DNA of 32,552 nucleotides from NCBI GenBank assembly GCA_019694895.1, contig JAIBBA010000023.1, forward strand, positions 1-32,552, read 5' to 3'. Within the stretch, counting starts at the first letter, position 1, and the number at the start of each line of letters is the position of its first letter. The position numbers and the translations under genes were made by a program. Of this stretch, positions 3,944 through 20,795 are shown in pieces. The notes beneath the pieces were generated by a model. That model was not told where the DNA came from. It ran no database searches and was given only the letters and a program-made list of their open reading frames with translations. This DNA is from Chitinophagales bacterium (GTDB lineage Bacteria; Bacteroidota; Bacteroidia; Chitinophagales; BACL12).

Positions 3944-4100
3944 TCCCGTGGACGTAGATGCGCAAGTACCGGAGGGGGACGCACAGATTGTGTGTAGTGG
4001 TTTGCTCCACGGACGGGAGTACACAAGTTGTGGAGGGTATTTGCCGCACGGACGTAGACACGCAAGTACCGGACGAGGACACAGAGTTGTGGAGGTATAC
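3944..4100. repeat. GC-rich imperfect tandem repeats
   Basis: Two copies of a block GGACGTAGAnrCGCAAGTACCGGA lie about 100 bases apart (3949-3973 and 4049-4073), each followed by a variant of ACACAGnnTTGTGnnG. A half-unit (4009-4040) lies between them. The G+C content is far above the surroundings. These could be iterons or protein-binding sites of an origin. Confidence 0.55.
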
Positions 4101-4409
4101 CCCTTATCTGGGCGCGTAAGTAATAGTTTGCGAAAAGTATCTAAAAGTGATACATTGCGCAAAAAATCTATCTTCGGGGATACGTAGCAGGGTGGTTGGG
4201 GATATATTAAGTGGGGGTAAGAAAAAGGCAGTTATATGTGTATATATTATAAATCCATCTGTAATATATAATAGTAGTTAATTACAGTCATGGTTGAGAA
4301 GGGGCTTTCGTATTTAAGGAGTATTTAATGTAGGTTGATTTTGGCATATCGGTATACAGGTAGTTGGTAATGGAGGGTTTACTACAGGGGTTGAGGTGTA
4401 TTTTATTCA

Positions 4410-4604
4410 TTACTTTATTCCGCGGATTGTGGTATCGAGACGATTGTGAAATCGAGACAATACGAAGTATCGAGACGATTCACGCACTGGCATGATTTGT
4501 GAGTAGAGTTTAGTGCCAAGTATCCTATATACCACCCAATAGGTCGATCCAAATTGAATAGTGGCTTTGTTAATATCTATAGGTGTAAGATATATCTGTT
4601 TCAT
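4410..4604 (-). CDS. Hypothetical protein (64 aa), coupled to a repeat ORF
   Basis: The ATG overlaps the TGA of the tetrapeptide-repeat ORF upstream (ATGA). It begins MKQIYLTPIDINKA and contains 'YWVVYRILGTKLYSQI', loosely like the Leu/Tyr spacing of the repeat family, then Ser-Arg-Tyr/Phe repeats (18-base period, 4431-4484). It may be a diverged member of the same family rather than an independent gene. Function unknown. Confidence 0.45.
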   Translation of the reverse strand: MKQIYLTPIDINKATIQFGSTYWVVYRILGTKLYSQIMPVRESSRYFVLSRFHNRLDTTIRGIK

Positions 4605-4753
4605 TCGCTTGTCTTTAAATCATCTCCAAGCTGCCTATAAAGCTGCCAACTAAGCTGCCAATAAAACGGACTATCAATCTGCAAATAAAGCGGCCTATCA
4701 AGCTGCCTATAAAGACGACTACTAATCCCCGAATTAAGTTCTATCTTGTCCAT
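4601..4753 (-). CDS. Tetrapeptide-repeat small protein (50 aa), copy 1
   Basis: Begins MDKIELNSGI and then runs in four-residue units of the form xQLY/xQLD (RLY RQLD RPLY LQID...), ending GDDLKTSE. At DNA level the period is 12 bases. The ATG immediately follows the TAA of the polymerase fragment (TAAATG), and the TGA overlaps the next ATG (ATGA). The regular Leu every fourth residue suggests a helical or superhelical fold; no function is known to me. Confidence 0.6.
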   Translation of the reverse strand: MDKIELNSGISSRLYRQLDRPLYLQIDSPFYWQLSWQLYRQLGDDLKTSE

Positions 4754-6190
4754 TTATTTATTCTTATACCATTTATAAAAAGCTACCTCATGTTCAGTCA
4801 TTATCCCCGCCGATACGGCAAGATCCAAGTGGCTGTCATAGTCAGGTGAACTCATTGTGTCAACATAGGGTCTATCATAATGAAATATAAAGTGATTGCG
4901 GGTAGTGTTTTCTAGGCTTTTGATATCGGCTTCACAAAGCTCCATATTGTCGTCTGGGATCAGCGATCTGCGAATATATTGCCCATAGGCTGCTCTGACT
5001 TTGGGCAGGTTAGCTACAACAGTATGTTTTATGCGTAGGGTATTGGTGAAGCCACCTGCGGTAGAGATGATGTGGTCTCTTTCTATGGAGTTGTGCTTAG
5101 GATTGGAAGAGCGGATAGCCTTATCAACAAATCGTTGGATCGTGGCTATTCGATCACTTAATATACCTGTATGTTCTAACAGTTGGACTTGGGGATATTT
5201 GGAGACTAAGGACTGAACTGACGGGGTTAGGGCTTTATCTTTGGTTAGAATAAGTTCTATGAAGTGCTTAGTGTCTCCTTTTAATTCCATTCGGTATGTG
5301 CAAGGTATCCATCCTAAACTCTTTAGCCAGCTCTTTAGCTGGATATCTGAATCGGGGTTGGGGTCTTTATATTTCTTTATGTATTTAATTTCTTCTGGGT
5401 AGTTATTAGAGTATTTGGCTGTATCGCGGTGCATTTCGGTGATGGGAATGTTGTCTTTGAAATATAGGTTCAGGAATTTCCCCGCCGGATTCGATAAATT
5501 GCCGTTCTTTAGGTACATAACTGAAGGTCTTTTTATGGAAGCGTATTCGGGTACTTTAGGCATGACCTGTTTAAGCTCGTAGTGCATTTCATCTAAATTG
5601 GATTTGAGTTTTGGGAGTATATCATATATGAACTCTAAATCTAACTTGAAGGGGTTTTTGGCTTGCATGGCTAAGCATTTCATTTTGAAGCTTAGGCGTT
5701 GTATGACATGGTGGAATGGTTTTTCGTTATAGAGTTCTTTGAAGTCAGCCATCATATTTTCGTACATAAGTATGTTTATGGTTACATCTCGTTCGCATCT
5801 ACGGATATAATCGTTGAGTGGCAGGTTTTCCCAATTGTCTATATCTATTTTTTGCATTCCTAAGAATGCTCCATGTGTGGATAAGCTATGTTTTTTCATA
5901 TCGGGGTAAAGATACCACGAAAGGGATAATGTGTCTATGAAGCGATTGCTTTTAGGGACTTTTATGTTGAGGATTTTTTCGAGGGCGGGGATATCGAATT
6001 GAATAATATTATGTCCTATGAAGGTTGCGTTCTCTTGTGTTAAGAATTTGCGCATACGATCATGATCTGTTATGGACACTGTTCGCCAAGCATTAGAGTT
6101 AGTGTCCTTAAATGCGTATGTCAGGACATGGATTATGTCGGGTGTGAGAGAGTTAAACTCTGCATCAAAAACGTATATTTTATCGGTCAT
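4754..6190 (-). CDS. N-terminal part of a T7-like family A DNA polymerase (478 aa)
   Basis: Residues 6-12 'VFDAEFN' give the exonuclease DxE motif, 'FIGHNIIQFDIPAL' (about 57-70) the second exonuclease motif, and 'YIRRCERDV' (about 128-136) the region of the third. The C-terminal part matches the palm entry of T7 polymerase: 'TAGGFTNTLRIKHTVVANLP', then 'EADIKSLENTTRNHF' (motif A with its Asp) and 'DYDSHLDLA'. The protein stops at 'FYKWYKNK', just before the fingers helix (motif B) and motif C, so it cannot polymerise alone. The missing half is not in this window. It may be supplied in trans, or the gene may have been broken by the repeat ORF that follows it. The exonuclease domain looks intact. 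Confidence 0.75.
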   Translation of the reverse strand: MTDKIYVFDAEFNSLTPDIIHVLTYAFKDTNSNAWRTVSITDHDRMRKFLTQENATFIGHNIIQFDIPALEKILNIKVPKSNRFIDTLSLSWYLYPDMKKHSLSTHGAFLGMQKIDIDNWENLPLNDYIRRCERDVTINILMYENMMADFKELYNEKPFHHVIQRLSFKMKCLAMQAKNPFKLDLEFIYDILPKLKSNLDEMHYELKQVMPKVPEYASIKRPSVMYLKNGNLSNPAGKFLNLYFKDNIPITEMHRDTAKYSNNYPEEIKYIKKYKDPNPDSDIQLKSWLKSLGWIPCTYRMELKGDTKHFIELILTKDKALTPSVQSLVSKYPQVQLLEHTGILSDRIATIQRFVDKAIRSSNPKHNSIERDHIISTAGGFTNTLRIKHTVVANLPKVRAAYGQYIRRSLIPDDNMELCEADIKSLENTTRNHFIFHYDRPYVDTMSSPDYDSHLDLAVSAGIMTEHEVAFYKWYKNK

Positions 6191-6327
6191 TTCGTAACAT
6201 TTAAATCTTCTCCAAGCTGCCTATCAAGTTTCAAACGAAACTGCCAATAAAGCTGCCAATAAAGCCGCCTAGCAAGCTGATCATAAAGCTGCCTATTAAT
6301 CCCCGAACTAAGTTCTATCTTGTCCAT
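6187..6327 (-). CDS. Tetrapeptide-repeat small protein (46 aa), copy 2
   Basis: Starts MDKIELSSGINRQLYDQL and continues in xQLY units to 'GEDLNVTK'. The TGA stop overlaps the ATG of the polymerase fragment (ATGA), so translation of the polymerase is probably coupled to this ORF. Confidence 0.6.
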   Translation of the reverse strand: MDKIELSSGINRQLYDQLARRLYWQLYWQFRLKLDRQLGEDLNVTK

Positions 6328-6340
6328 TTACACGGTAAAT

Positions 6341-6553
6341 TCATTCGCTTGTCTTTAAATCATCTCTAAGCCTCCAATAAAGCTCATCAAAAAGCTGCCA
6401 ATAAAGCGGCCTATCAAGTTTCAAACGAAGCATCCAATAAATCTGCCAATAAAGCGGCCTATCAAGGTTCAAACGAAGCCACCAATAAAGCTGCCTATAA
6501 AGCTGCTCATTAAGCTGCCTATTAATCCCCGAATTAAGTTCTATCTTGTCCAT
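6341..6553 (-). CDS. Tetrapeptide-repeat small protein (70 aa), copy 3
   Basis: The longest repeat ORF: MDKIELNSGINRQLNEQLYR, then xQLY/xRLxLD units and the shared tail 'DDLKTSE'. It lies directly upstream of copy 2. Between them only a 9-codon frame (MNLPCKWTR) bridges the gap and overlaps copy 2's ATG. The shared start and tail with copies 1 and 7 show recent duplication. Confidence 0.6.
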   Translation of the reverse strand: MDKIELNSGINRQLNEQLYRQLYWWLRLNLDRPLYWQIYWMLRLKLDRPLYWQLFDELYWRLRDDLKTSE

Positions 6554-6582
6554 TTACACCTCCAATTTCATTGATGGTAAAT

Positions 6583-6768
6583 TCATTTACTTCTTTTTCT
6601 AACCTCTTTTACTATCCGTATGAACATAATCCAAGACCACCAGCGATTCTTAAAAATTAAAAGCCTCGTGTTTTCCTCCTCACAGAAAATCCCAATACTC
6701 ATTAGTTCAATAACGCCAAAGAGATACAGAGAAGCAACGCCAAGTACAATATTTAAACAATATAGCAT
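6583..6768 (-). CDS. Small membrane protein (61 aa)
   Basis: Residues 3-28 are strongly hydrophobic (one or two membrane segments), followed by 'CEEENTRLLIFKNRWWSW' and a very basic tail 'VKEVRKRSK'. It is the first gene after a terminator and a clear TAnnTTTG promoter, so it probably starts the transcript that carries copies 3 and 2 and the polymerase fragment. The final codons overlap a 10-codon leader frame (MNLPSMKLEV) that reaches copy 3. No family recognised. Confidence 0.5.
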   Translation of the reverse strand: MLYCLNIVLGVASLYLFGVIELMSIGIFCEEENTRLLIFKNRWWSWIMFIRIVKEVRKRSK

Positions 6769-6782
6769 AAAATAATTTCAGG

Positions 6783-6790
6783 CAAATGTA
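6783..6790 (-). promoter_or_regulatory. -7 promoter box TACATTTG
   Basis: Minus strand TACATTTG matches the Bacteroidota -7 consensus TAnnTTTG. It lies about 15 bases before the ATG at 6768 and just downstream of a terminator, as expected for a new transcript. Confidence 0.55.
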
Positions 6791-6830
6791 ATACAGATTT
6801 GGAATATAAAGTGTGAATAATATGTTAAAT

Positions 6831-6876
6831 AAAAAAGCCGCCTAATCAGGTGTTAATCGGAACTCTGACTGGCGGC
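6831..6876 (-). terminator. Rho-independent terminator
   Basis: Minus strand GCCGCC(A)GTCAG...CTGATTAGGCGGC followed by TTTTTTATTT. A strong stem plus T-run closes the nrd-linked operon after the gene at 6899-7063. Confidence 0.85.
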
Positions 6877-6898
6877 TATGAAGAAAAATTTGCTTGTC

Positions 6899-7063
6899 TT
6901 AAATAGCGTTGTACATATTTTGGAATATAGAGATGTTCATGTCTCGTTCTAAATGATCATATAATGTCCAGTTAAGATAGACATCAATATTGGAACTTAC
7001 CATACTATGCATATCCCAGTATAGTTTAGAGTGGAAAGTTGGTGCGAGTCTTATTGTTTTCAT
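6899..7063 (-). CDS. Small protein, diverged repeat-family member (54 aa)
   Basis: ATG start, MKTIRLAPTFHSKLYWDMHS..., with Leu/Tyr-Trp spacing ('SKLYW', 'LNWTLYDHL') that resembles a worn copy of the tetrapeptide family. It follows the repeat ORF at 7074-7214 by ten bases and is the last gene before the terminator. Function unknown. Confidence 0.45.
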   Translation of the reverse strand: MKTIRLAPTFHSKLYWDMHSMVSSNIDVYLNWTLYDHLERDMNISIFQNMYNAI

Positions 7064-7073
7064 GTTGTGGTTT

Positions 7074-7214
7074 TTACAATCGCCAATATAGTTCCCGGTA
7101 GAGTTGGCTGTGAAGTTTATCTTGTAGCTTCCAATAGATTCTCCAGTAGAGCACCCTTCTTAGCCCCCATTCAAATTTCCGCCTATCAAGAGAAGTAGGT
7201 TCTATCTGTTTCAT
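7074..7214 (-). CDS. Tetrapeptide-repeat small protein (46 aa), copy 4
   Basis: Begins MKQIEPTSLD and ends in 'YWRIYWKLQDKLHSQLYREL' type units. The ATG overlaps the TGA of the upstream gene (7211-7429), so it is translationally coupled. It is more diverged than copies 1-3. Confidence 0.5.
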   Translation of the reverse strand: MKQIEPTSLDRRKFEWGLRRVLYWRIYWKLQDKLHSQLYRELYWRL

Positions 7215-7429
7215 TTCTTTGCTTTGATATCACGATATAATCTTTCAAAAAATGAATCCTCTGTCCAATACCAACTACAAGAACAGCTTCCTCCACGGCG
7301 ACCAAGCGTGCCTAATCCTTCTTCTATATCTGTAATGGCATCTTCAACTTTGACAGAACCTAATTTGCGCCTCTGATCATTTAATGCCGGAAGTAGTTTT
7401 TTGATATTGTATAATTCAATTTTTTTCAT
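7211..7429 (-). CDS. Hypothetical protein (72 aa)
   Basis: Begins MKKIELYNIKKLLPALNDQR, with an acidic helix 'VEDAITDIEEGLGTLGRRGG' and an odd 'SCSCSWYWTED' patch. The start MKKIEL echoes the repeat family, but the body is not repetitive. It follows copy 5 by nine bases and overlaps copy 4 by four. Function unknown. Confidence 0.5.
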   Translation of the reverse strand: MKKIELYNIKKLLPALNDQRRKLGSVKVEDAITDIEEGLGTLGRRGGSCSCSWYWTEDSFFERLYRDIKAKK

Positions 7430-7438
7430 ATTGTGATT

Positions 7439-7570
7439 TTATATTAGGTCTAAATAAATCTGATCATAAAGCAGCCAATAAAGCTTCCAACGAAGCTGCA
7501 TATAAATCTGCATATAAAGCTGCCTATAAAGATTCTCATGAATCTGCAAATTAAGTTCTATCTGATCCAT
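7439..7570 (-). CDS. Tetrapeptide-repeat small protein (43 aa), copy 5
   Basis: MDQIELNLQIHENLYRQLYM... in xQLY/xQIY units to 'YDQIYLDLI'. It lies nine bases after the nrdA stop and nine before the next ATG, within the same operon. Confidence 0.55.
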   Translation of the reverse strand: MDQIELNLQIHENLYRQLYMQIYMQLRWKLYWLLYDQIYLDLI

Positions 7571-7579
7571 GTTTACCTA

Positions 7580-10141
7580 TTAAGAAGCACAAGATGCACA
7601 CTCAGCCGCAAAAGCACTCTCATTCCTCTTTTCAGTGCTCGCAAATAGTCTTACTGGCTTGTCAACTTGACTTTGTGTTTTTAAATAATAACAACCTGTC
7701 TTTAATCCCCACTGCCATCCATAAATCAATGCAGATGATATTTTGGTATAATCTGGATTTGCAAAATATAAATTCATAGATTGTGATTGATCTATATATA
7801 ATTGCCTGTCAGCCGCCATGTCTACAATATGTTTCATAGGTATTTCCCATACGGTAAGATACTTTAGCTTTAAATCATCAGGAATTTCAGTGATTCTTTG
7901 CACCGACCCACTATCCGCCACTATTCGTTTCCTAATATCAGGAGTCCAAAGTCCTAATCTTTCAAGATCAGCCACTAAATACTTATTGATCAGAACAAAT
8001 TCACCGATTCCCGTAGCACGGGTGTAAATATTTGAATTAAATGGCTCAAAACACTCGTTGACACCTAAAAGTATGGATGTTGAAGCTGAAGGCATTAAAC
8101 CTATCAATAAAGAGTTAGCCATTTTTATCGGCTCATCTGATATTTTGCCTCTAATATCATATCCTTTAGAATATGGTGAATCCTGCCATGCTGGATAACA
8201 CTTAATCTCTCCTAATTCATTGGAGGCCGTAAAAGCACCTCTGTATAAAGCCTTAAATATCTCTTTGTTGAGTTCTTTAGCCTCTTCGGAGTAAAAAGCT
8301 ACGTTAGCTTTAGCGTAGAAATCGGCAAGTCCAGCGACACCTATGGCTATCGCTCTTTGTTCTTTGCCAGCCTTTTCCGCTGCTTCGTTTGGATAGTGTG
8401 TCTTATCTATTACTTTATTAAGCATTAAGGCTATGGTGTAAGCTGTTTCCTCTATCTCAAACATTGTAGGGTTTTCGGCAAGATTTACAAGACCCAAAGT
8501 GCATTGGGCGGTGTAATTGGAGTCGGAAACTTCGGTTATTTCGGCACAGTTTCCTGTGAGTATGCCGTTGAAAATTACCTTACCTCTGAGAGGTTCTGTA
8601 ACGCAATAAGTATCATGAAGTCCTTCTAATTTATTGATTGCTTTTACTTTTACACCTATGATAGTTTCTTGGAACATGCCTGTTACTACCTGTGGTATAT
8701 TCCATCTATATAGCTCATCCCCGGCTGTCAAATCTTCGGCTCTAACTTCAATCTCGTTGGTAGATTTAGACGGATCAAAAATATAAAACTTATGGTAATT
8801 TGTGCAATCTATCCTATGTCCGTTACTAAACTCGATACGAAGTAGTTCTTTGTCAATACCTGTTTTAGTAGGCATAACAGTTGACCACTCCTCACCGTTC
8901 CAGCATTCTATCTGCTTTCCAACTAACTCGGATATTTTTAAATAACCTTGTCTTGTAAGTATCAACGTATCACCATGTACACATAGATTTGACTGCTTTA
9001 CAACGCCAATATTATTCTGCATATTATGCTTATTGGCATTATCTTTATGGAATATATATGGAGTTCCAGATTTAACCATGCTCGTAATAATAGCATCCCA
9101 AATTCTCTTTGGATTAATAGGTGTCCCAATTCCTAATTCCACCGCCTTGTCATATTCAGACTTAAAAGCATCACCATGTAAGTTCTCAAAAGGAGTTAAT
9201 CCGCTTTTCTTAATATCATTAGGGCAAAATAAATACCAATCCCTACCGTCTTTAAGGCAGTTCATGAACACATCGTTCAGGGTTATGGCTGTAAAAACAT
9301 CTCTGGCTCTAAGCTTCTCATCCCCGATTGGAAGTCTTAATTCAAGAAAGTCTAATACGTCCTTGTGCCATACTGATAAGTACAACGCACAACTTCCTGA
9401 TCTTGCGCCCTGACGGAAGAATCTCATGTGTGATTGAACCATATCGGCAAATCGGGTAACACCACCTGCCTTATCTTTGAATGAAGATACTAAGCTGTCT
9501 TTTGATCTAAGGCAGTCTATGGACAGACCTATGCCTGCGCCTTCTCTGGAAGCCTCGCTTATGGCATTGAGTGTATTCAAAATACCTTCTGTGCTATCTG
9601 ATTCCAGCTTGGTCAGATTGCATGATATAAGTCCTTTGCGTGAAGTACCTCCGTTTGTAAGAATGGGAGTGGCTACGGATCCACGTCGGGATAATAAGAT
9701 ATTTGCAAACTTATCTTGTTCTTCATGGGTGTCGGATAAGAATGATGCTACTCTATTGTACATCATATGGGGAAGTTCAATAGGTTCGCCTTTATCATTT
9801 CTAACGGAATACTTCTTTAGGAAAGTTAGTGCTCCGAAAATATCATACTGCAAATCTACATCCTGACATGGTACGCCAATGATCTTAGATTGACGAGTCA
9901 TAAGTATTCTTCCACCAAATAGGGAATAGTCTGGATGTTCGATGATGAGATCGGCGGCTTTATAGGCTAAGATTTCATCTATGGCTGTTGTAGTCATCCC
10001 ATCTTGTATGGATGGAACTATTTTTTGAAATAATATATCAGGATTTGTGCCGTGTAGCCCTTTGCATTGATCTTTGATGCGCTTCCATATTTTCCCTGGC
10101 GCAAATGTTTGTTTTGTTCCGTTGCTTTTAATTATTTCCAT
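7580..10141 (-). CDS. nrdA: Ribonucleotide reductase class I alpha subunit, with intein
   Basis: NrdA reduces ribonucleotides to deoxyribonucleotides together with NrdB. Residues 1-90 form a partial ATP-cone-like region. The first redox Cys is C174 ('LISCNL'), the thiyl-radical Cys is C532 in 'NC-AE' after splicing (E. coli N-L-C-L-E), the partner Cys is C547 ('QCTLGL'), and the C-terminal shuttle pair is C848/C851 ('ECASCAS'). A 145-residue mini-intein (387-531) interrupts the protein exactly before C532, so activity depends on protein splicing. The start ATG overlaps the stop of the upstream repeat ORF (TAATG). The operon also holds nrdB, typical of large phages that make their own dNTPs. 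Confidence 0.95.
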   Translation of the reverse strand: MEIIKSNGTKQTFAPGKIWKRIKDQCKGLHGTNPDILFQKIVPSIQDGMTTTAIDEILAYKAADLIIEHPDYSLFGGRILMTRQSKIIGVPCQDVDLQYDIFGALTFLKKYSVRNDKGEPIELPHMMYNRVASFLSDTHEEQDKFANILLSRRGSVATPILTNGGTSRKGLISCNLTKLESDSTEGILNTLNAISEASREGAGIGLSIDCLRSKDSLVSSFKDKAGGVTRFADMVQSHMRFFRQGARSGSCALYLSVWHKDVLDFLELRLPIGDEKLRARDVFTAITLNDVFMNCLKDGRDWYLFCPNDIKKSGLTPFENLHGDAFKSEYDKAVELGIGTPINPKRIWDAIITSMVKSGTPYIFHKDNANKHNMQNNIGVVKQSNLCVHGDTLILTRQGYLKISELVGKQIECWNGEEWSTVMPTKTGIDKELLRIEFSNGHRIDCTNYHKFYIFDPSKSTNEIEVRAEDLTAGDELYRWNIPQVVTGMFQETIIGVKVKAINKLEGLHDTYCVTEPLRGKVIFNGILTGNCAEITEVSDSNYTAQCTLGLVNLAENPTMFEIEETAYTIALMLNKVIDKTHYPNEAAEKAGKEQRAIAIGVAGLADFYAKANVAFYSEEAKELNKEIFKALYRGAFTASNELGEIKCYPAWQDSPYSKGYDIRGKISDEPIKMANSLLIGLMPSASTSILLGVNECFEPFNSNIYTRATGIGEFVLINKYLVADLERLGLWTPDIRKRIVADSGSVQRITEIPDDLKLKYLTVWEIPMKHIVDMAADRQLYIDQSQSMNLYFANPDYTKISSALIYGWQWGLKTGCYYLKTQSQVDKPVRLFASTEKRNESAFAAECASCAS
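8549..8983 (-). other. Mini-intein inside NrdA (145 aa)
   Basis: Starts at Cys387 ('CVHGDTLILT', block A) and ends at Asn531, followed by extein Cys532. Block B is 'HRIDCTNYHKF' with the TxxH pattern (T447, H450). Block F has 'HDTYCVTEPL' and block G 'VIFNGILTGN'. The usual penultimate His is Gly530. No endonuclease domain is present. The insertion sits at the radical cysteine, a known hot spot for inteins in ribonucleotide reductases. Confidence 0.92.
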
Positions 10142-10311
10142 TAGTGTGGTTGTATGTTTCTTAAAAGAATATCATGAATTGATAACAAGGAGTTTAAATC
10201 ATCCCAATGACTTGGCGAGGCAAGATCATCAATAAGCTTCAAGTAAAGCCATGGAAAAATCTGAATCTGAAGCGTATTACCAATCCCCGAATTAAGCTCT
10301 ATCTTATTCAT
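10141..10311 (-). CDS. Diverged repeat-family protein upstream of nrdA (56 aa)
   Basis: Keeps the family start (MNKIELNSGI), but the repeats have decayed ('LQIQIFPWLYLKLIDDL'). The stop TAA shares its last base with the nrdA start (TAATG), and its ATG overlaps the stop of copy 7 (ATGA), giving an unbroken coupled chain copy 7 - this ORF - nrdA. Confidence 0.5.
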   Translation of the reverse strand: MNKIELNSGIGNTLQIQIFPWLYLKLIDDLASPSHWDDLNSLLSIHDILLRNIQPH

Positions 10312-10514
10312 GTTTCATTTGTTGTCTTTAAATCTTCGTTAAGCTGCCAATAAAACTGCCCATCAAGCTGCCAATAAAGCTGCCTATAAAGCTGCCAATA
10401 AAGCTGATCATAAAGCTGCGCATCAAGATGCCTATAAATCTGCCTATAAATCTGCCTATCAAGCTGCTCATAAAGCTGCCTATTAATCCCCGAATTAAGT
10501 TCTATCTTGTCCAT
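10308..10514 (-). CDS. Tetrapeptide-repeat small protein (68 aa), copy 7
   Basis: The cleanest repeat: after MDKIELNSGIN come a dozen units of the type RQLY, EQLD, RQIY, WQLY, ending 'NEDLKTTNET'. Repeats begin at residue 12 and have a strict four-residue period. It lies 26 bases downstream of nrdB. Confidence 0.65.
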   Translation of the reverse strand: MDKIELNSGINRQLYEQLDRQIYRQIYRHLDAQLYDQLYWQLYRQLYWQLDGQFYWQLNEDLKTTNET

Positions 10515-10540
10515 TTACACGGTAAATTCAATATCTAACT

Positions 10541-11494
10541 TTAAAAATCTCCTGAATATATATCACCACTTATCTCAATCTCGGTATAATCATTATTCCC
10601 TCTTCCCTCAAAGAAATTACCCCTCCTGCCTAATGCTATCCTTGCCATATAATCCAAAGGGTTCTGCACGTTAAATTCAGGCTCACAATCAAAATCCATC
10701 AGCACTGTATCTGTCGTGTATCTGACATATTGTATCATCTGATCTTTTGTTAATCCATCTAATCCTTCCGGCATTGACTCGTTGACAAATATTTCTTCAA
10801 CTGTGCAGCACTCCAAGATAATCTCTCGAACTCTTGCCTGATCTAATTTATTACTATTTGGAACATAATTTTTATAAAGGTGATTGGCAAATTCATAATG
10901 AGTGTTCTCGTCTAAAAGTATTAATTCATTAGCTCTCCCCAGCCCCAGCATTTTGTTACGGGATCTATACCAAAAAATACCTGCAAATGTGGATGAAAAT
11001 GCAATACCCTCGACACAGGCAAATGCCACAAGTCTTTCTTCAAATGAAGGAGATTCAATCCACTTGATTGCCCAATTAGCTTTATCGGCAACTGTTTTCA
11101 TCTTAGATACAGCGTTAAACATGGCATCTTTCTCTACCAAGTCTTTGATGTAGGTATCTACTAATAGTCCATACATATGTGCGTGTACACATTCTATGGC
11201 TGCTTGGAACATATAGAAATACTGAGCTTCGGGAATATCTACTTCTCTGAGAAAGTTGAGTGCTAAGTTCTCTATAACTATTCCGTCTGATATACTGAAA
11301 AAGGCTAATAGGTTTTTAAGATAAACCTGTTCTTTTTCGCTAAGTTCGCTAAACCTATCTTCTGATAGGTCTATTTCTTCTGCTACCCAGTTTTGCTTCT
11401 GGGCTTTTTTATATCTATCCCACAGGTCTATATGTTTTATTGGTAGAATAGACCATCGTTTTTCTTCTTTTTGTGATTGGTTGTGGTTTGTCAT
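10541..11494 (-). CDS. nrdB: Ribonucleotide reductase class I beta subunit
   Basis: NrdB holds the dimetal centre and radical that start catalysis in NrdA. Predicted ligands are D42 ('EEIDLS'), E101 and H104 ('ECVHAHMY'), E162 ('CVEGIAF'), E196 and H199 ('DENTHYEF'). Tyr108 sits where the stable tyrosyl radical lies in the eukaryotic-type R2 family ('HxxMY'). The length of 317 aa is normal for a phage R2, and the C-terminus 'GDIYSGDF' fits the tail that docks on NrdA. It is encoded upstream of nrdA in the same direction, separated from it by two repeat ORFs. Confidence 0.95.
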   Translation of the reverse strand: MTNHNQSQKEEKRWSILPIKHIDLWDRYKKAQKQNWVAEEIDLSEDRFSELSEKEQVYLKNLLAFFSISDGIVIENLALNFLREVDIPEAQYFYMFQAAIECVHAHMYGLLVDTYIKDLVEKDAMFNAVSKMKTVADKANWAIKWIESPSFEERLVAFACVEGIAFSSTFAGIFWYRSRNKMLGLGRANELILLDENTHYEFANHLYKNYVPNSNKLDQARVREIILECCTVEEIFVNESMPEGLDGLTKDQMIQYVRYTTDTVLMDFDCEPEFNVQNPLDYMARIALGRRGNFFEGRGNNDYTEIEISGDIYSGDF

Positions 11495-11515
11495 TGTAAT
11501 TGTCAGATTGTTTTG

Positions 11516-11668
11516 TTAAGAGATGGTCAATTTTATCTCTATCAGCACAAAAACGGTCCTAAATAGCCATCTATTAGATATATGCCATAGACTTAAGCAT
11601 TGTTCTGGAAGTTGTCTAACTATGGCAACCTCAAAGTCCGCAGTATATCTCAATTTTATACTTTTCAT
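11516..11668 (-). CDS. Small hypothetical protein (50 aa)
   Basis: ATG start, MKSIKLRYTADFEVAIVRQL... with a hydrophobic C-terminal half 'WLFRTVFVLIEIKLTIS' that could be a membrane segment. It lies between repeat copy 8 and nrdB in one operon. No family recognised. Confidence 0.45.
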   Translation of the reverse strand: MKSIKLRYTADFEVAIVRQLPEQCLSLWHISNRWLFRTVFVLIEIKLTIS

Positions 11669-11670
11669 GT

Positions 11671-11832
11671 TTACTTTATCGTTAAATATGCTTTAAGTTG
11701 ACCATAAAGATGCCAAAAGAGTGACCAACTAAGTTGTATATCAAGCTGGCTATAAAGCTGCCTATTAAGCTGCCAATTAAGCTGCCCATAAAGCTGATCC
11801 GAAATCCCTGATTTAAGTTCTATTATATCCAT
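11671..11832 (-). CDS. Tetrapeptide-repeat small protein (53 aa), copy 8
   Basis: Begins MDIIELKSGISDQLYGQLNW and continues in xQLN/xQLY units to 'KAYLTIK'. It is the first ORF after the terminator at 11842-11875, only about ten bases from its T-run, and two bases from the next ORF. Confidence 0.55.
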   Translation of the reverse strand: MDIIELKSGISDQLYGQLNWQLNRQLYSQLDIQLSWSLFWHLYGQLKAYLTIK

Positions 11833-11841: not shown

Positions 11842-11875
11842 ATAAAACAGCCCCAGCGATTAACCGAGGCTGCTA
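11842..11875 (-). terminator. Rho-independent terminator or attenuator before the nrd operon
   Basis: Minus strand CAGCCTC-loop-GGGGCTG followed by TTTTATTT. It ends the upstream gene unit, but the next ORF begins about ten bases later with no room for a promoter, so read-through past this hairpin may control the nrd genes. Confidence 0.7.
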
Positions 11876-12322: not shown

Positions 12323-12964
12323 TCAAATATGTCTTTTTTTTCTGGTTAAAAAATAATCATTGTTTTCATAACATTTTTTCAAGAAGTTTAATGAGTCATT
12401 CTTTTTTAAGATAACCTTGTTTAGTATTGAATTGTCTCTATTTTTAATGGATAGAACTCTGATTTCATTATCCAAGTATGGAGATATATATTCTGTGAAA
12501 ATATTATATGTTTCACCGTTAAAGCATAAAACTATGTAACCATCATCTTTATTAATGCTACCATCTCCATCAAAATATCCCATCCAAAAGTTAATCTTAA
12601 GATTGTCGGGTATTAGCGTCATATTTACAAATGATTCTAATGCACCTTTTTTGGGGGTTATTCCTAAATTAATTAAATCATTATACATTTTAACAGAATA
12701 CAAATTTATCTCACAAGAATGAGTTTGCGTTTCATTCCTTATCCTTTCTCTAAATGTAAGTGGCTTTATGTACCCTATTTCATTGCGAAGCATATCCAAT
12801 ATATAAGAATCACTGTTTATGCAAGTAATCTGTATTTGCTTTGAACTCCTTTTTGTATTTATAATATTGCCATCAGCCATTAATAAACCTAAAAAATAAG
12901 CTTTGGCTTTAGTATCAATTGCCTCAAAGAAAGATTCATTATAAAACCACTTTCGCACGCACAT
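12323..12964 (-). CDS. LAGLIDADG homing endonuclease (213 aa)
   Basis: Two LAGLIDADG helices are clear: 'AYFLGLLMADGNI' (about residues 22-34) and 'FWMGYFDGDGSI' (about 126-137), each with the catalytic Asp. A single-chain enzyme of this length is normal for a stand-alone homing endonuclease, which cuts a long target and spreads by copying. The ATG follows the stop of the upstream gene with no gap (TAAATG), so it is translated with its host gene and probably inserted at or near the gene's 3' end. Confidence 0.9.
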   Translation of the reverse strand: MCVRKWFYNESFFEAIDTKAKAYFLGLLMADGNIINTKRSSKQIQITCINSDSYILDMLRNEIGYIKPLTFRERIRNETQTHSCEINLYSVKMYNDLINLGITPKKGALESFVNMTLIPDNLKINFWMGYFDGDGSINKDDGYIVLCFNGETYNIFTEYISPYLDNEIRVLSIKNRDNSILNKVILKKNDSLNFLKKCYENNDYFLTRKKRHI

Positions 12965-14191
12965 TTAATTAGCCGAGTTCCAAAGTAAAGGAACACTGTC
13001 AGGAACTCTCGATGGTCTGGCATACTTAGCCGCCGCTTCGGCAGTTTTAATTTCAGGAGGTACATTGATGAAATAATGTGAACCTGTGGAAGGGCAAATC
13101 TCATGAAGCCAAGCTAACTGTGCGCCAAGATTGCCTTTGCTGTCCATGGCCCAATCGTGCTTATCCTTTGTCTTGTAAAGCTCCAATATCTCAACGTGTC
13201 TTCTTTTTTCTCCGGATATGGAATATTCACCAGTGATCTCGTCAACTTGCAAGATGTCGTGATCCCCGTGATCCACTGTCCAAGAGTCCACTTTTTCTGC
13301 TTTAAGAAATTCCAACATACCCTGCTCGCCATGATTCTCTCGGATCAGTGTCATTACAGCAGCCCTTTGATCCTCGTTGTCTAATTCATTGAACTGATCA
13401 AATGTGAATGTTTTGTTTAACACCCCTTCAAACAATTCTTTTTCAACAACTCTGCCGTTGATATAGTAGCAGTCGTAGGGTTGGAACGTATAATTCCACT
13501 CTACTGCCTGTCCTTTGGTATTGTGCATTACCCAGTTGTTAGACTCATCCTGATAGATGCTTTTTGGGTGTCTTGACACAATAGCCACTTCTTCTCCTGT
13601 AATGACGGCATAGATACCAGCTTCTCTCTGTAAGGCAAATCCTTCTTCAAAGTCTTTATTCAATTCTTCCTCCAACGGAACGTTAAATTCATCCCTGATG
13701 AAGCTCCACCACGCGTAAAGTGCGGGTGAATAAATATTCATTGTAAAGACATAAGAATCTGATTTCTCTTTCAAATAATCTCTGAATATATCAGAATTAC
13801 GAGAAGACATATACTTTTTAATGTCGTTCTCAACGGTAGTCTGAAGCTCTTTAGCCGCAGTTGCTCTTTCTTTGGTAGTTTTCAGCTTAAGTATTTTCTT
13901 TACTGTTGGCTGATAGTATTTGTAGTTTAACGCCATGAAGTTGCGCATAAGTTGCATCTCCAAGGCGTTTTCGGTAGATAATACAACGGGAATCGCAAAA
14001 TTGCTTTTGGCATAATTCCATTCCACTGCTTTAGTGGCATCTAACAGGTTAAATTTCCTGTAAGTGTTTCTGTTGTAAATGTCACGGGTGGCATTTTCCT
14101 TGTATATGGGAATTTTTGCCTCGATTTCAGGAGTCATCTCCTTGATAATCTCTTTTTTGTTCTGTGTTTCTTTTTCTTTTAGATCCGACAT
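12965..14191 (-). CDS. Unknown 408-aa protein, DUF6745-like middle
   Basis: An acidic, soluble protein. The central part ('ALYAWWSFIRDEFNVPL', 'AVITGEEVAIVSRHPKSIYQDESNNWVMHN', then 'FDQFNELDNEDQRAAVMTLIRENHGEQGMLEFL') recalls the DUF6745 type of domain found in scattered bacterial and phage proteins of unknown function; I hold this loosely. The last 90 residues ('HVEILELYKTKDKHDWAM', 'PSTGSHYFINVPPE') look like a separate module. It is the first gene left of the cassette array and has its own promoter at 14209-14216. Confidence 0.6.
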   Translation of the reverse strand: MSDLKEKETQNKKEIIKEMTPEIEAKIPIYKENATRDIYNRNTYRKFNLLDATKAVEWNYAKSNFAIPVVLSTENALEMQLMRNFMALNYKYYQPTVKKILKLKTTKERATAAKELQTTVENDIKKYMSSRNSDIFRDYLKEKSDSYVFTMNIYSPALYAWWSFIRDEFNVPLEEELNKDFEEGFALQREAGIYAVITGEEVAIVSRHPKSIYQDESNNWVMHNTKGQAVEWNYTFQPYDCYYINGRVVEKELFEGVLNKTFTFDQFNELDNEDQRAAVMTLIRENHGEQGMLEFLKAEKVDSWTVDHGDHDILQVDEITGEYSISGEKRRHVEILELYKTKDKHDWAMDSKGNLGAQLAWLHEICPSTGSHYFINVPPEIKTAEAAAKYARPSRVPDSVPLLWNSAN

Positions 14192-15043: not shown

Positions 15044-15137
15044 CATAACAGCGGCTTGGCGTAATGCCGCTATCAAGTGAGTGCGTAATTTTAAAATTTC
15101 TACAAACGGCACATACGCCAAGCCGCAAAACGTTATG
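15044..15137 (+). repeat. attC-like site B
   Basis: CATAACA-GCGGCTTGGCGTA...TACGCCAAGCCGC-AAAACGTTATG, 94 bases with 13-bp perfect inner arms. Its left flank (TACACATAAC) complements the start of unit 1 (GTTATGTGTA). Confidence 0.85.
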
Positions 15138-16206
15138 CCCCATTTAATAGCGACCCGAAAATGTGAGCGATTACATCAACAGTCCATCCGTTTCCGAGCA
15201 TTTTATAGCGTTGAGTATCTGAAACACAATCGGTATAATTATCAGGTACGGTTTGTAATCTTTCGCATTCTTTCGGTGTTAATTTTCTCCACCCTATTAT
15301 TTCAGTCAATACTTTTGGTGCGTGGTTAGCAGTAATCGTATAACTTTTTGTATCAGGGTAGTGTATTGTTCCAATTTCAGAAATACCGCTTTTGCGTTCA
15401 TCGTTTCGGTGCGGTCTTATTCCTCTATCTGTAATGCTAAGTCCTTTTATTCGTGGGTTTTCGCTACTCATTTTAACCAATAACCCAGCCTTGTTTCTTT
15501 TAATCATACTCTTTGCGTTTTCTTTGTAAATCGTTGCAAGTATGGTTTGGCTTTTATCTTTAATTGGTTCGCCAATTTCAATAATATCTTTCAGTAAAAT
15601 TCCTTTATCTGTTGGCAGTTCTGTTATTGGTATATTTGTCCAATATAATCGCTCTCTACTTTGAGCCGAAACAAGTTCAGAGTTTATCAAAATTGGTTTT
15701 ACACCCAATATTTCAGAAATAATGTTTTGGTGTTCAGCTTTCATTTTTACATTTTCAAGCATCCAGTATTTAGGTTGTGTTTCATTTTTCAACCTCACAA
15801 ATTCAAAAAACAATTTGCTTCGTGGGTCTTCAAAGTTCAGCCCTTTGCCAGCAAAACTAAATCCTTGGCATGGGCTTCCACCTATAAGCAAATCTATTTT
15901 AGTAATAAAACTACCACCGTTTTTTAATGGGTTATCGTTTTGGTGGTGAAATAATGCCCCATCTTCATATTGTATTCCACAAACATCGCCCAGTTGTATT
16001 GTTTTCGGGTAGTTGTTTTGCGTTACCTTTATTGCGTGTTTATCAACCTCGCTCGCAAAGTAATTATCGTATTCAATACCTACTCTATTTAATGCAATTT
16101 GACCACACGACATGCCATCGAAAAGCGATAAAACAGAAGAAAAACGGGGCATAACACCGTGTATAAAACATGGTGGGTTTTCTGCGTTATTTAAAGTTTC
16201 GTTCAT
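15133..16206 (-). CDS. C5-cytosine DNA methyltransferase (357 aa)
   Basis: Dcm-type enzyme. It has 'VLSLFDGMSCGQIAL' at 25-39 (motif I), 'GGSPCQGFSFAGK' near 109-121 with catalytic Cys113 (motif IV), 'MLENVK' (motif VI), 'QSRERLYWTNIP' (motif VIII), 'LTPKECERLQTVPDNYT' (motif IX) and 'MLGNGWTVDVIAHIF' (motif X). The enzyme proper begins around M19-P20. The first 18 residues, ending 'IHGV', are encoded by site C, and the stop codon lies in the GGGGCATAAC core. A second, similar cassette is at 24462-25577; the two differ mainly between motifs VIII and IX, where target recognition lies. Confidence 0.93.
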   Translation of the reverse strand: MNETLNNAENPPCFIHGVMPRFSSVLSLFDGMSCGQIALNRVGIEYDNYFASEVDKHAIKVTQNNYPKTIQLGDVCGIQYEDGALFHHQNDNPLKNGGSFITKIDLLIGGSPCQGFSFAGKGLNFEDPRSKLFFEFVRLKNETQPKYWMLENVKMKAEHQNIISEILGVKPILINSELVSAQSRERLYWTNIPITELPTDKGILLKDIIEIGEPIKDKSQTILATIYKENAKSMIKRNKAGLLVKMSSENPRIKGLSITDRGIRPHRNDERKSGISEIGTIHYPDTKSYTITANHAPKVLTEIIGWRKLTPKECERLQTVPDNYTDCVSDTQRYKMLGNGWTVDVIAHIFGSLLNGA

Positions 16207-16279
16207 TCTATTAAGTTATTTGTAATTTGATAGTTCTGTGGTTTCTATCCCACCACGTTTCATACACAACACGTTAGCC
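16149..16279 (+). repeat. attC-like site C (contains the start of unit 2's gene)
   Basis: GGGGCATAACA...CACGTTAGCC with imperfect arms GTGTATAAAACATGGTGGG / CCCACCACGTTTCATACAC. The ATG at 16206 is in the loop. The left core GGGGCATAAC complements unit 2's start GTTATGCCCC. Confidence 0.82.
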
Positions 16280-17047
16280 GCAATACTCGGACACCCTCCG
16301 AACTGCGACATTAAAATATTTTTCATCCTTCTCTATTCCTATAAAGTGGCGACCCGTTTTTTTACAAGCGATACCCGTTGAACCTAACCCCATAAAAGGG
16401 TCTAATACAATTTCATTTTCATTTGTAGAATTTTCAATTAGCAATTGCATAAGTTCAAATGGCTTTTCGCTTGGGTGTACTTTGTTCCTAATACCATCAA
16501 TATTTATTAGTGCTTTTGTCCCAATTTTATTAATATATTTCGCCTTACCCTTTCTAAACATAACTATAAACTCTATGTTCTTAAAATAATATTGCGTTGG
16601 AGTGTGCATCCCTTTTGCCCATACTAAAATATTTTGTTGCTTAAATCCAGATTTTATCCCTTCTTCAATTACAGTTTTTAAGTGTAAATCATTAGTCATA
16701 CAGTAAAAATGTGTTTGTTGTTTTAGCACTCTGTATATTTCAGGCATCCAATCAGAAAACTTAATTTCGTTTTCCTTAAATATCTTTCCTTTTTTAGCAT
16801 TTCTATTTGATGTATTTTTATCTTCTCTCCAATGCCCATTTATAAACCCAGTCCCTTTGTAATCCCCTGATTTAGTTACAGTATATGGTGGGTCAGTACA
16901 AACTAAATCCACCGAATTATCCGCAATTTTATCCATTTCCACAAGGCAATCACCCTGATAAAATGTACTGCGGCTAACACTGCATTGCTGCAATGGCGGC
17001 TGGACGTTGTTATTCGGCTGTATGTTATCAAATAAACTTTTCTGCAT
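16274..17047 (-). CDS. N6A/N4C DNA methyltransferase, beta class (257 aa)
   Basis: Catalytic motif 'DLVCTDPPYTV' near the N-terminus (DPPY at 52-55) and SAM motif 'LDPFMGLGSTGIACKKTGRHFIGIE' near the C-terminus, the beta-class order. Adenine N6 or cytosine N4 is the target; the sequence alone does not decide. Residues 1-26 (MQKSLFDNIQPNNN...CSVSRS) are encoded by site D, with the core GTTAGC read as Val-Ser. The TAA stop lies in the core at 16273. Cassette unit 3. Confidence 0.9.
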   Translation of the reverse strand: MQKSLFDNIQPNNNVQPPLQQCSVSRSTFYQGDCLVEMDKIADNSVDLVCTDPPYTVTKSGDYKGTGFINGHWREDKNTSNRNAKKGKIFKENEIKFSDWMPEIYRVLKQQTHFYCMTNDLHLKTVIEEGIKSGFKQQNILVWAKGMHTPTQYYFKNIEFIVMFRKGKAKYINKIGTKALINIDGIRNKVHPSEKPFELMQLLIENSTNENEIVLDPFMGLGSTGIACKKTGRHFIGIEKDEKYFNVAVRRVSEYCG

Positions 17048-17103
17048 GTATTCAACTTTAGTTATTAAATGCCGCCACTGGCAGCAATGCTTTCACGTTA
17101 GTG
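16972..17103 (+). repeat. attC-like site D
   Basis: GGCTAACA...CACGTTAGTG with arms GCATTGCTGC-x-TGGCGGC / GCCGCC-x-GCAGCAATGC. The ATG at 17047 is in the loop. The left core TGCGGCTAAC complements unit 3's start GTTAGCCGCA. Confidence 0.85.
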
Positions 17104-17883
17104 GCAATACTCCAAAGCCCTACGAACAGCGACATCGTAATATTGTTTTTCCTTTTCAATTCCTATAAATTGCCGATTTGTTTTAAGGCAAGCTAAACCG
17201 ATTATTCCTGAACCCATTGTGTTATCCAAAACTATATCGCCCTCATTTGTATAGGTTTTGACAAGGTATTCTAATAACTCCAAAGGTTTTTGTGTTGGGT
17301 GTTCTCTTTTTTTATCTTTCTTAAAGGTAATTATGGATATTGGATTTTTCTCATCATAAACTCTTTCTTTTTTATCAAATGTAGTATCGTTTAAAAAATC
17401 ACTTTTTACTGCATATCCTTTTATTGGTTTTTCCCTTTTTGTTTTTTGTGGGTTAAATTTTAAATAACCTCCTTTTGGTGTATATGTCATTTTCCCTTTT
17501 GAGAAAACTAAAATCAATTCGTGTTGCATCATTGGTCTATAATTTGCCATTGTAAATCCTGTAGGTATTACTTTATCCCAAACAAACTCATATCTAAATA
17601 GTTTTGGATTGCTCATTACTAAAGCACTTGCAAAAGGGTTTGATGCAAATAATAAAATACAACCATTATCTTTTATTATTCGCTCATATTGCTCCCAAAG
17701 TCTGTCAAATGGTAAAACACTATCCCATTTACAAGCAGTTGTCCCATAAGGCAAATCGCAAATAATAGCATCAATTGATTTATCCTCAATAAAAGGAAAA
17801 ACATCGAAGCAATCAGCATTCACAAAAGTACTGCCACTAACACGGGTTTGGCAAAATGGCTGTTCAGTAATTCTATCAATCAT
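17098..17883 (-). CDS. DNA methyltransferase with DLPYG motif (261 aa)
   Basis: Catalytic motif 'ICDLPYGTTACKWD' (DLPY at 43-46) and C-terminal SAM motif 'LDNTMGSGIIGLACLKTNRQFIGIEKEKQYYDVAVRR'. The DLPYGTT form is a known variant of the N6A/N4C family in phages and type II systems. In the SAM motif the usual GSGTT is GSGII. The N-terminal 18 residues (MIDRITEQPFCQTRVSGS) come from site E. The enzyme at 26067-26861 has the same N-terminus and C-terminus but a different middle. The stop TAA lies in the TGCCACTAAC core. Unit 4. Confidence 0.9.
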   Translation of the reverse strand: MIDRITEQPFCQTRVSGSTFVNADCFDVFPFIEDKSIDAIICDLPYGTTACKWDSVLPFDRLWEQYERIIKDNGCILLFASNPFASALVMSNPKLFRYEFVWDKVIPTGFTMANYRPMMQHELILVFSKGKMTYTPKGGYLKFNPQKTKREKPIKGYAVKSDFLNDTTFDKKERVYDEKNPISIITFKKDKKREHPTQKPLELLEYLVKTYTNEGDIVLDNTMGSGIIGLACLKTNRQFIGIEKEKQYYDVAVRRALEYCH

Positions 17884-17960
17884 TCGTTTTTAATTATTAA
17901 GTTTTGTATTCCAATTTAGCTTCGGGTTCAGCCACTTCGCCAAGCCCGAAAACGTTACCA
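17835..17960 (+). repeat. attC-like site E
   Basis: CACTAACA-CGGGTTTGGC-x-TGGCTG...CAGCCA-x-GCCAAGCCCG-AAAACGTTACC. The ATG at 17883 is in the loop. Nearly the same stem recurs as site P behind the paralogous gene, so the stem travels with this cassette. Confidence 0.85.
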
Positions 17961-17966
17961 GCAATG

Positions 17967-18728
17967 TTAAGACCGTGCATTATTCAACCTTTGGAGCGTT
18001 ATTTCAACTGCTCGTGGGTTAATATCACAGCCAATAAAATTACGGTTTAAATCTTTGCATACTTCGGCAGTTGTTCCTGAACCAAGATAAAAATCAGCCA
18101 CTAAATCGCCTTCGTTTGAGCTTGCATTGATTATCCGTTCTATTAATGCTTTTGGTTTTTGGGTATTATATTTAACCCCATTTTTTAGGAAATTAATATC
18201 AGTCCACACGTCTTGAACCAAATATGTACTTCCGTTCAAATAATCTGCTTTATCATTATTGAATCCTGCTTTTGTCTTACTTCTGTTTATTGTATTTGTG
18301 GCGTATTCTTTTCTTAATGATTTATGCTCGTGGTTAAATTTATAATATGTAGATTTGCTGTAAAATAAAATACAATCGTGTTTTTTAGGGTATCTATTTT
18401 TTGTGTTTGACATTGAGTTATAATACCACGAAATTTCATTTAGGAATCTATCATATCCAAAAATGTCGTCCATAATCAAACGAACCCAATGGTTTATCCT
18501 CGTATCCATTTGCAAATAAATACTGCCTGTATCTTTTAAAATGCGGTGCATATCTTTTATTCGTGGTATGTAGTGCGCTTCAATTTCACTTCGTATCGGT
18601 TTTAAATCTTGATAGTCTGCAAATTTCCTTCCAGTACCATAAAGAATATCACAGTAAATTAAATCTACCGTTCCACTTTCAATTTTCGACATTAACTCTA
18701 AGTTGTCGCAACATTCAATTTGTATCAT
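17967..18728 (-). CDS. DNA methyltransferase with DILYG motif (253 aa)
   Basis: Motif 'VDLIYCDILYGTG' (DILY at 27-30) stands where DPPY is expected, followed by 'GSIYLQMDTRINHWVRLIMDDIFG'. The C-terminal SAM motif is 'DFYLGSGTTAEVCKDLNRNFIGCDINPRAVEITL'. The architecture is that of the N6A/N4C family close to type III Mod proteins. It lacks the 30-residue N-terminal extension of its relatives at 20936 and 21832. Its cassette ends do not match (start GTTACCAGC, end GCGCATAAC), unlike its neighbours, so unit 5 may be a recombinant. Confidence 0.85.
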   Translation of the reverse strand: MIQIECCDNLELMSKIESGTVDLIYCDILYGTGRKFADYQDLKPIRSEIEAHYIPRIKDMHRILKDTGSIYLQMDTRINHWVRLIMDDIFGYDRFLNEISWYYNSMSNTKNRYPKKHDCILFYSKSTYYKFNHEHKSLRKEYATNTINRSKTKAGFNNDKADYLNGSTYLVQDVWTDINFLKNGVKYNTQKPKALIERIINASSNEGDLVADFYLGSGTTAEVCKDLNRNFIGCDINPRAVEITLQRLNNARS

Positions 18729-18767
18729 ATAATTTTATTTTAAGAATTTAATAAAGAAAGGCAAGCG

Positions 18768-18822
18768 CATAACACTGTGTATGTGCCATGAAATACACGG
18801 CACATACACTTGTCGTTATAAG
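18768..18822 (+). repeat. attC-like site F
   Basis: CATAACACT-GTGTATGTGCC-(11-base loop)-GGCACATACAC-TTGTCGTTATAAG: 11-bp perfect arms. A compact site of about 53 bases, close to the smallest classical attC sites. Confidence 0.85.
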
Positions 18823-18922
18823 CAAATGGCGGGACGATGAGCAACTTCGTCAACATCTACTCTCTCACAGAGAAGCTACCTCTCCGTCTAAGTATTTGCT
18901 GCTTCCGCCATCAGCTTATAAC
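18815..18922 (+). other. Non-coding cassette (unit 6)
   Basis: A 108-base unit between GTTATAAGC and GCTTATAAC cores. The ends extend into complementary arms (CAAATGGCGGGACG... / ...CGCCATCAGC), and the centre holds a CTCTCACAGAGAAGCTACCTCTC hairpin region, so the whole unit can fold. No plausible protein. It may encode a structured RNA or be a remnant cassette. Confidence 0.55.
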
Positions 18923-18965
18923 AGGGGCTATAAGAAATAAAACCCCTGCCAACGCTATGTTATTC
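18914..18965 (+). repeat. attC-like site G
   Basis: GCTTATAACA-GGGG...CCCC-TGCCAACGCTATGTTATTC, short arms. The left core complements unit 6's start. A second, identical copy is at 25751-25802. Confidence 0.65.
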
Positions 18966-19142
18966 AAAATATCTCTCAACATCTTTTGCATTAATGTCAA
19001 AAGGAACATGTTTGCCAAAATCTCCTGTCGCTTTAGTAACAGTTAAAATTCCGTTTCCATTTTTGTAAAGTTTTTTAACTTTAGCTGTGTATCCTGCCGT
19101 TTTATGCTTTACGACTGAACCTACTTTGATTTTTTTTGCCAT
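18960..19142 (-). CDS. Small basic protein, SH3/KOW-like (60 aa), copy 1
   Basis: I chose the start MAKKIKVGSVVKHKTAGYTA because it follows an A-rich leader and a good promoter; a longer frame opens 25 codons upstream but runs through the promoter. The pattern 'KVGSVVKHKTAGYTAKVKKL' recalls small beta-barrel (KOW/SH3-like) nucleic-acid-binding proteins; this is tentative. The stop TAA lies in the GAATAAC core. The same gene is repeated at 25797-25979. Confidence 0.6.
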   Translation of the reverse strand: MAKKIKVGSVVKHKTAGYTAKVKKLYKNGNGILTVTKATGDFGKHVPFDINAKDVERYFE

Positions 19143-19172
19143 TGTTTTTGTTTTTAAATTGTTTATGTTATG

Positions 19173-19180
19173 CAAATTTA
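19173..19180 (-). promoter_or_regulatory. -7 promoter box TAAATTTG inside unit 7
   Basis: Minus strand TAAATTTG matches TAnnTTTG, 31 bases before the ATG at 19142. It occurs again in the second copy (26010-26017). Transcription from it would continue leftward into units 6, 5 and 4. Confidence 0.5.
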
Positions 19181-19229
19181 CAAAATCCACCGCACGAAAA
19201 GGGATTTTACTTCTCATAGCCCCGAACCG

Positions 19230-19484
19230 TTATAAGCCATTTTTCCAACCGTTCTCTTTATCCCATAAAATTATACTACCACGTTTTATACTTTCCTTAA
19301 TCAAAGTTTTATCTGGATTGGAACAAGTGCATTTATAGGTATGTCCACAGTAGCATAATTTTTCTCCATACTCGTCTTTAGATTTTTCTCTCATTTCAAT
19401 CCAAGTTTTGTATGGAAATAAAAAACGGCTTATAACAGCGTATATACGCAATGCTTTCAGTTTTTCAATCAAATTTTTTATCAT
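19230..19484 (-). CDS. Small Cys-rich protein (84 aa)
   Basis: Contains 'LCYCGHTYKCTCSNPD' (about residues 43-58), a compact Cys/His cluster that could bind zinc. The N-terminal helix 'NLIEKLKALRIYAVISRF' is partly encoded by an arm of site I ('RIYAV' from the GCGTATATACGC arm). The stop TAA is in the GGCTTATAAC core. After this core there is no stem: the next unit begins directly at GTTCGGGG, so the separating site is lost or degenerate. Unit 8; function unknown. Confidence 0.55.
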   Translation of the reverse strand: MIKNLIEKLKALRIYAVISRFLFPYKTWIEMREKSKDEYGEKLCYCGHTYKCTCSNPDKTLIKESIKRGSIILWDKENGWKNGL

Positions 19485-19552: not shown

Positions 19553-19637
19553 AAGCGGGCGGACGTGCTTCGATTGAAGTTCAGGATAGAAAAAAGTATT
19601 AAAAATTTTCCCTCCCTCTTTGTCTGCTCCGCAGCCA

Positions 19638-20738: not shown

Positions 20739-20795
20739 TTTTAATACTTTTTTCTTTAGTTATTCGATATAACTTTTGTGTTGAAAATCCCGCCA

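Follow-up and report, generated by a model that had tools for sequence, protein, structure and literature searches.

Tandem repeats of 12-bp units that vary in number and differ at codon positions 1 and 2 have been described in the mycobacteriophage genes Tweety gp54, Che8 gp57 and PMC gp51 (PMC2884959, PMC9262239, PMC8549241). In the units of Tweety gp54 the third codon positions are constant (PMC2884959), and its product is a reported, re-tunable counter-defence protein of obscure mechanism, with escape mutants against a prophage defence that gain or lose repeats (PMC9262239, PMC8549241). The bbp36 VR2 of Bordetella phage BMP-1 also consists of tandem repeats of variable number, but by its description it is set apart by a 24-bp element within a single gene (as cited in PMC2884959). 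Fused tetrapeptide-repeat proteins are likewise known in phages, and phage proteins of the DUF6745 family (PF20530) contain internal xQ[LV]x repeats. Here we analyze a family of tiny open reading frames (ORFs) composed of tetrapeptide repeats, found in contig JAIBBA010000023.1 of a Chitinophagales bacterium draft genome (GCA_019694895.1). The window, i.e. the whole stretch of DNA analyzed, is the entire contig of 32,552 bases.

The repeats of these ORFs are the same as those of the DUF6745 phage proteins, the flanking domains of which have a repeat-less homologue in the same gene cluster of the window (12965-14191, minus strand, 408 amino acids, aa). However, the DUF6745 phage proteins keep their repeats internal, whereas the window carries about nine separate tiny genes between the DNA polymerase (pol) and ribonucleotide reductase (nrd) genes. 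The tiny ORFs match a detached DUF6745 repeat region, which an earlier note on this DNA had overlooked, and they may represent the multiplied form of the central region found inside DUF6745 proteins elsewhere. The interpretation that we tentatively prefer, with a confidence that falls somewhat short of even, is a tetrapeptide-repeat system that is split and multi-copy, has DUF6745 as its partner and probably serves in interaction with the host or its defences.

The earlier note listed eight such ORFs, all of which exist and lie on the minus strand: 4601-4753 (50 aa), 6187-6327 (46 aa), 6341-6553 (70 aa, with higher-order repeats of 24/48 nucleotides, nt), 7074-7214 (46 aa), 7439-7570 (43 aa), 10141-10311 (56 aa), 10308-10514 (68 aa) and 11671-11832 (53 aa). 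Hydrophobic residues recur in seven of them at an exact spacing of four residues, with longest runs of 9-15 (p <= 0.0002, by residue shuffling). The remaining ORF, 10141-10311, is a degenerate member with the common start and weak repeats, whose run reaches only 6 (p=0.027). A ninth member, 6899-7063 (minus strand, 54 aa), had been missed; it encodes 12 consecutive period-4 hydrophobic residues (p < 1e-4) in the same phase as most of the others (residue 10 onward). As in the internal repeats of DUF6745 proteins, the units of the tiny ORFs follow a period-4 xQ[LIV]x pattern with a constant Q-L and two variable residues. This applies only marginally to 10141-10311, and in 6899-7063 and 7074-7214 the hydrophobic position is kept, with the Q mostly missing. 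The MDKIELNSGI-like start ascribed to the family is not shared by all members, as 7074-7214 begins with MKQIEPTSLD and 7439-7570 with MDQIELNLQI. The whole window contains 13 ATG-initiated ORFs of 35-80 aa beginning with M[DKN]xIx[LP], and all 13 are located inside the tiny-ORF region. Four small minus-strand ORFs (4288-4410, 4410-4604, 7211-7429 and 11516-11668) have this start motif only.

The proposed 12-base period of the DNA was confirmed with Tandem Repeats Finder, which delimited arrays of 12/24 nt at six sites (4628-4714, 6241-6293, 6374-6525, 7466-7531, 10341-10483 and 11725-11796). Within one phage the repeats are nearly identical in DNA, and other frames across them are also open (e.g. 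10328-10471), so an open frame alone is no proof of translation. Both features would suit a DNA-level repeat, such as an iteron or recombination substrate, in which the ORFs are incidental. This explanation is already contradicted by 7074-7214 and 6899-7063, in which the codons are varied and the amino acid pattern persists where the DNA repeat is gone. Because these two members encode the pattern with quite different codons, it is the protein pattern in its frame, and not the DNA, that is conserved, which goes against the refutation named in the earlier note (a reading frame under no selection). In addition, fused homologues are read in the same frame, and the changes fall mostly on codon positions 1 and 2 of that frame; we consider a purely DNA-level role extremely improbable. 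The tiny ORFs are probably translated, as judged from their sequences: the period-4 pattern statistics, the diverged-codon member and the homologues in other phages all point in this direction. They have no match in Pfam, PHROGs, NCBIfam or PADLOC.

Structure prediction with AlphaFold2, an approach suggested in the earlier note, returned one continuous alpha-helix for the 68-aa product of 10308-10514 (residues 3-67, mean predicted local distance difference test score, pLDDT, 91.9). In our interpretation each tiny ORF would encode one alpha-helix, which has an invariant Q-L/I stripe beside two stripes that vary. For L109, a fused protein, the two flanking domains were predicted at moderate confidence and the repeats, at low confidence, as helices. 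These models support a helical rod. If the scaffold or filament protein raised in the earlier note is extended to include DUF6745, the helices would bundle, with DUF6745 as a cap or nucleator, and organize replication or virion parts; the location among replication genes also fits. However, a structural part is expected to be conserved and not hypervariable, and the arrays of sister strains gain and lose units and ORFs, which makes a scaffold rather unlikely.

The presumed partner, encoded by 12965-14191, shares 34% identity over 269 aa with the C-terminal region of the L050 protein (BLASTP, E 6e-41) and matches both models that we built for the family (C-domain, E 1.1e-31; N-domain, E 1.6e-6). 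It has no match to Pfam PF20530 at E<=1. The cut-off of this Pfam model is 27 bits; the close relative L050 scores 21.9, while the more distant L044 and L056 pass. Ten of the 13 contigs with free-standing repeat ORFs, the window included, hold a repeat-less DUF6745-like gene. We also performed a reverse test, which started from a DUF6745 motif pattern and not from the repeats. Frequencies from this and the other scans describe samples, i.e. they apply among the matches listed (120 per scan). The reverse test gave 45 genes with both domains, 19 fused and 26 repeat-less, and tiny ORFs were present in the loci of 16 of the 26 repeat-less genes, one of the 19 fused genes and one of 74 controls (Fisher test for repeat-less loci, 6e-11 versus controls and 1.2e-4 versus fused), several of these loci being from near-identical strains; after manual grouping, tiny ORFs are present in about 9 of 16 repeat-less groups. 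The contig of the sole fused locus with tiny ORFs also has a repeat-less copy.

In a tree of 58 flank sequences, parsimony placed 10 changes between the fused and repeat-less states, at least five of them forced by strongly supported branches, a count that may shift by one, as L063 was labelled fused and is really split (its tiny ORF is read through, in another frame, by the open stretch that precedes the start of the gene). The window gene groups with L109, L050 and L151 at full support, and its fully supported group comprises four fused and two split members (the window and one other). Simple as they are, the repeats do not lend themselves to a tree of their own, and a possible common descent of the tiny ORFs and the fused repeats, as opposed to convergence, has indirect support from these repeated switches on the DUF6745 tree. 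The pattern is as if several phage lineages had detached and multiplied the repeats yet kept the rest of the protein, which suggests that the helices still work with it; the tiny helices of the window would then probably function jointly with the repeat-less DUF6745-like protein encoded in their own cluster. By eye, a small gene with a GDVLI...GExTGHxH-like pattern was often seen in phages near the DUF6745 gene (L186, L065, L032, L307, L309 gp37 and L310 gp175).

The earlier note had recommended a search of other phages for the MDKIELNSGI start plus repeats. The exact family is absent from the viral contigs, phage records, related genomes and 84,980 species genomes searched, the start giving one chance match in the last set, to an unrelated Rhizobiales protein; the repeat class, in contrast, recurs in phage contigs. 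A tblastn search of phages with a tiny protein gave no match, as BLAST masks simple repeats, and no relatives of the repeats were found in 150 related genomes. Relatives were sought with degenerate DNA patterns for repeated QL/QV units, and the many matches to simple repeats in other frames were excluded. About 20 loci carry 1-18 repeat ORFs, often joined by short overlaps. Two architectures were distinguished: repeats forming the middle of a 400-500-aa protein with flanks that match or resemble DUF6745, and free-standing repeat ORFs, each about 40-115 aa long, of which a locus holds one to 18. The latter type occurs in L024 and L030 (MKQV...QVKENLK, ATGA overlaps), L032 (11-nt overlaps), L065 (roughly 26-nt overlaps, with tail and head in different frames), L014 and L051 and, from a later scan, L209, L220, L222, L240, L241, L268, L292 and L294. 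DUF6745-type proteins of L059, L094, L130, L171 and L174 have other central period-4 repeats (e.g. SSLx, RELx, DATx, xxAV); these differ in residues while keeping the period, so the spacing varies less than the residues do.

The order of transcription in the window begins with the DUF6745-like gene, a LAGLIDADG endonuclease gene, a 130-aa ORF, tiny ORF 11671-11832, a small ORF and nrdB. These are followed by two tiny ORFs, nrdA, a tiny ORF, a small ORF and the tiny ORFs 7074-7214 and 6899-7063, and then by a 130-nt gap, a 61-aa ORF, two tiny ORFs, the pol fragment, a tiny ORF and two small ORFs. Short overlaps or gaps make up the majority of borders in this cluster, and the ATGA, TAATG and TAAATG junctions and the placement between pol, nrdA and nrdB were described correctly in the earlier note: 6187-6327 overlaps the pol start by ATGA, 10141-10311 the nrdA start by TAATG, and 4601-4753 starts directly after the pol fragment (TAAATG), while 7439-7570 begins 9 nt after the nrdA stop. 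This arrangement makes it plausible that the ORFs act as translational couplers, whose main task would be to sustain the passage of ribosomes between nrdB, nrdA and pol and whose peptides would matter little. Other phages offer similar indications, as the conserved tail of each repeat ORF in L024, L014, L032 and L065 overlaps the start of the next, and in L032 the tail also holds a ribosome-site-like GGAGG of the next ORF. Coupling nevertheless leaves unexplained the arrays in which as many as 18 tiny ORFs occur, for the most part uninterrupted by other genes, the same repeats fused within DUF6745, the protein pattern kept despite diverged codons, and the hypervariable residues with their excess of amino acid-changing variation. 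We judge it improbable as the main role of these ORFs.

The variation within the repeats is confined in a regular manner. As in Tweety gp54, the window has 12-bp units with constant third positions and varied positions 1 and 2, although Tweety gp54 is one long gene with AAxx repeats. Third codon positions are nearly fixed per phage (CAG CTT NNT NNG in the window, the fourth codon being less strict; CAA TTA NNC NNT in L065), and the last two codons of the unit vary at their positions 1 and 2. In these variable codons the ratio of amino acid-changing to synonymous variation (pN/pS), which is descriptive since differences between tandem units are not independent, was 1.7 in the window (bootstrap 1.2-3.1) and 2.7-7.6 in four other phages. 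As the variation is limited to certain codon positions, we considered a diversity-generating retroelement; among the ORFs no reverse transcriptase was noticed, though no specific search was made. Between the sister contigs L024 and L030 there is a difference of one 12-bp unit, and a deletion of exactly 194 bp joins two neighbouring ORFs in frame; the remaining about 9.2 kb has five mismatches. Recombination between 12-nt units and between whole ORFs would reshuffle and re-lengthen the helices in frame, and, with amino acid variety apparently favoured, could produce a quickly re-tunable set of binding helices.

The dispersal of copies over several gene borders in the window, two of them with the common leader GAATTTACCGTGTAAATGGACAAG, would fit a selfish mini-gene that copies itself into such borders; the earlier note had proposed a selfish element that inserts between genes. 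This proposal did not hold up well: neither terminal inverted repeats nor target duplications were noticed, no mobility gene is tied to the tiny ORFs, the copies in other phages form tandem arrays, and the association with a partner gene would be unexpected. The spread resembles duplication and recombination of repeat cassettes, and a selfish element seems very unlikely.

Returning to a split repeat system that partners DUF6745, its most likely use would be contact with variable host factors, above all in counter-defence. By analogy with Tweety gp54, the tiny ORFs could be a library of re-tunable helices directed against host defences. Several points weigh against this interpretation. Three of the 13 contigs with free-standing ORFs (15, 20 and 66 kb) are without DUF6745, and the loci of five repeat-less clusters are free of tiny ORFs. 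BLASTP comparisons of Tweety gp54, its N- and C-terminal regions included, with L047 and with the window protein gave chance matches only; as Tweety gp54 has no sequence relation to DUF6745 and a differing AAxx repeat, the functional parallel is an analogy. Recent duplication or conversion, and not selection, may account in part for the low synonymous variation. The window proteins have no PADLOC match, and a fold search of the Protein Data Bank with the model of L109, a fused relative, gave no significant match. To our knowledge, DUF6745 has no known function. The further-reaching idea of a previously undescribed phage system, in which a DUF6745 hub would be served by an expandable library of hypervariable single-helix mini-proteins, encoded by their own tiny genes and altered by in-frame 12-nt recombination as a modular counter-defence repertoire, is possible but doubtful.

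The contig carries further phage-type genes on the minus strand, among them those for the large and small subunits of ribonucleotide reductase, for a DNA polymerase, of which the exonuclease half is present, and for many DNA methyltransferases. NrdA (7580-10141, minus) has an intein-like insertion at about residues 389-529, which starts with CVHGDTL, ends with TGNC and has a weak, below-cut-off match to Pfam Intein_splicing (residues 426-479, E 3e-5). The LAGLIDADG-type endonuclease gene (12323-12964, minus) directly adjoins the DUF6745-like gene. The polymerase ORF (4754-6190, minus) looks truncated, as it covers only positions 669-1017 of the 1445-long phrog_17 profile, and the rest was not seen among neighbouring ORFs. 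Many methyltransferase genes are located at 15100-27900, several of them near-duplicates (200-300-nt direct repeats, 66-98% identity), with a 300-nt stretch occurring twice (18795-19094 and 25632-25931, 98%). The segment 3700-4280 has an odd composition, no convincing gene and 37-nt direct repeats (3950-3986 and 4050-4086, 84%). A terminator-like hairpin (11846-11874, minus) separates the 130-aa ORF from tiny ORF 11671-11832; such hairpins are no more numerous in the tiny-ORF region than expected by chance.

What is new in these data is that a repeat region comparable to those of the known fused proteins has repeatedly been split into sets of tiny independent genes beside a repeat-less remainder. 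Tiny repeat ORFs of this kind are easily missed or dismissed in genome annotation. The split form indicates a candidate physical partner of the helices, and it makes the length and composition of the repeats testable helix by helix.

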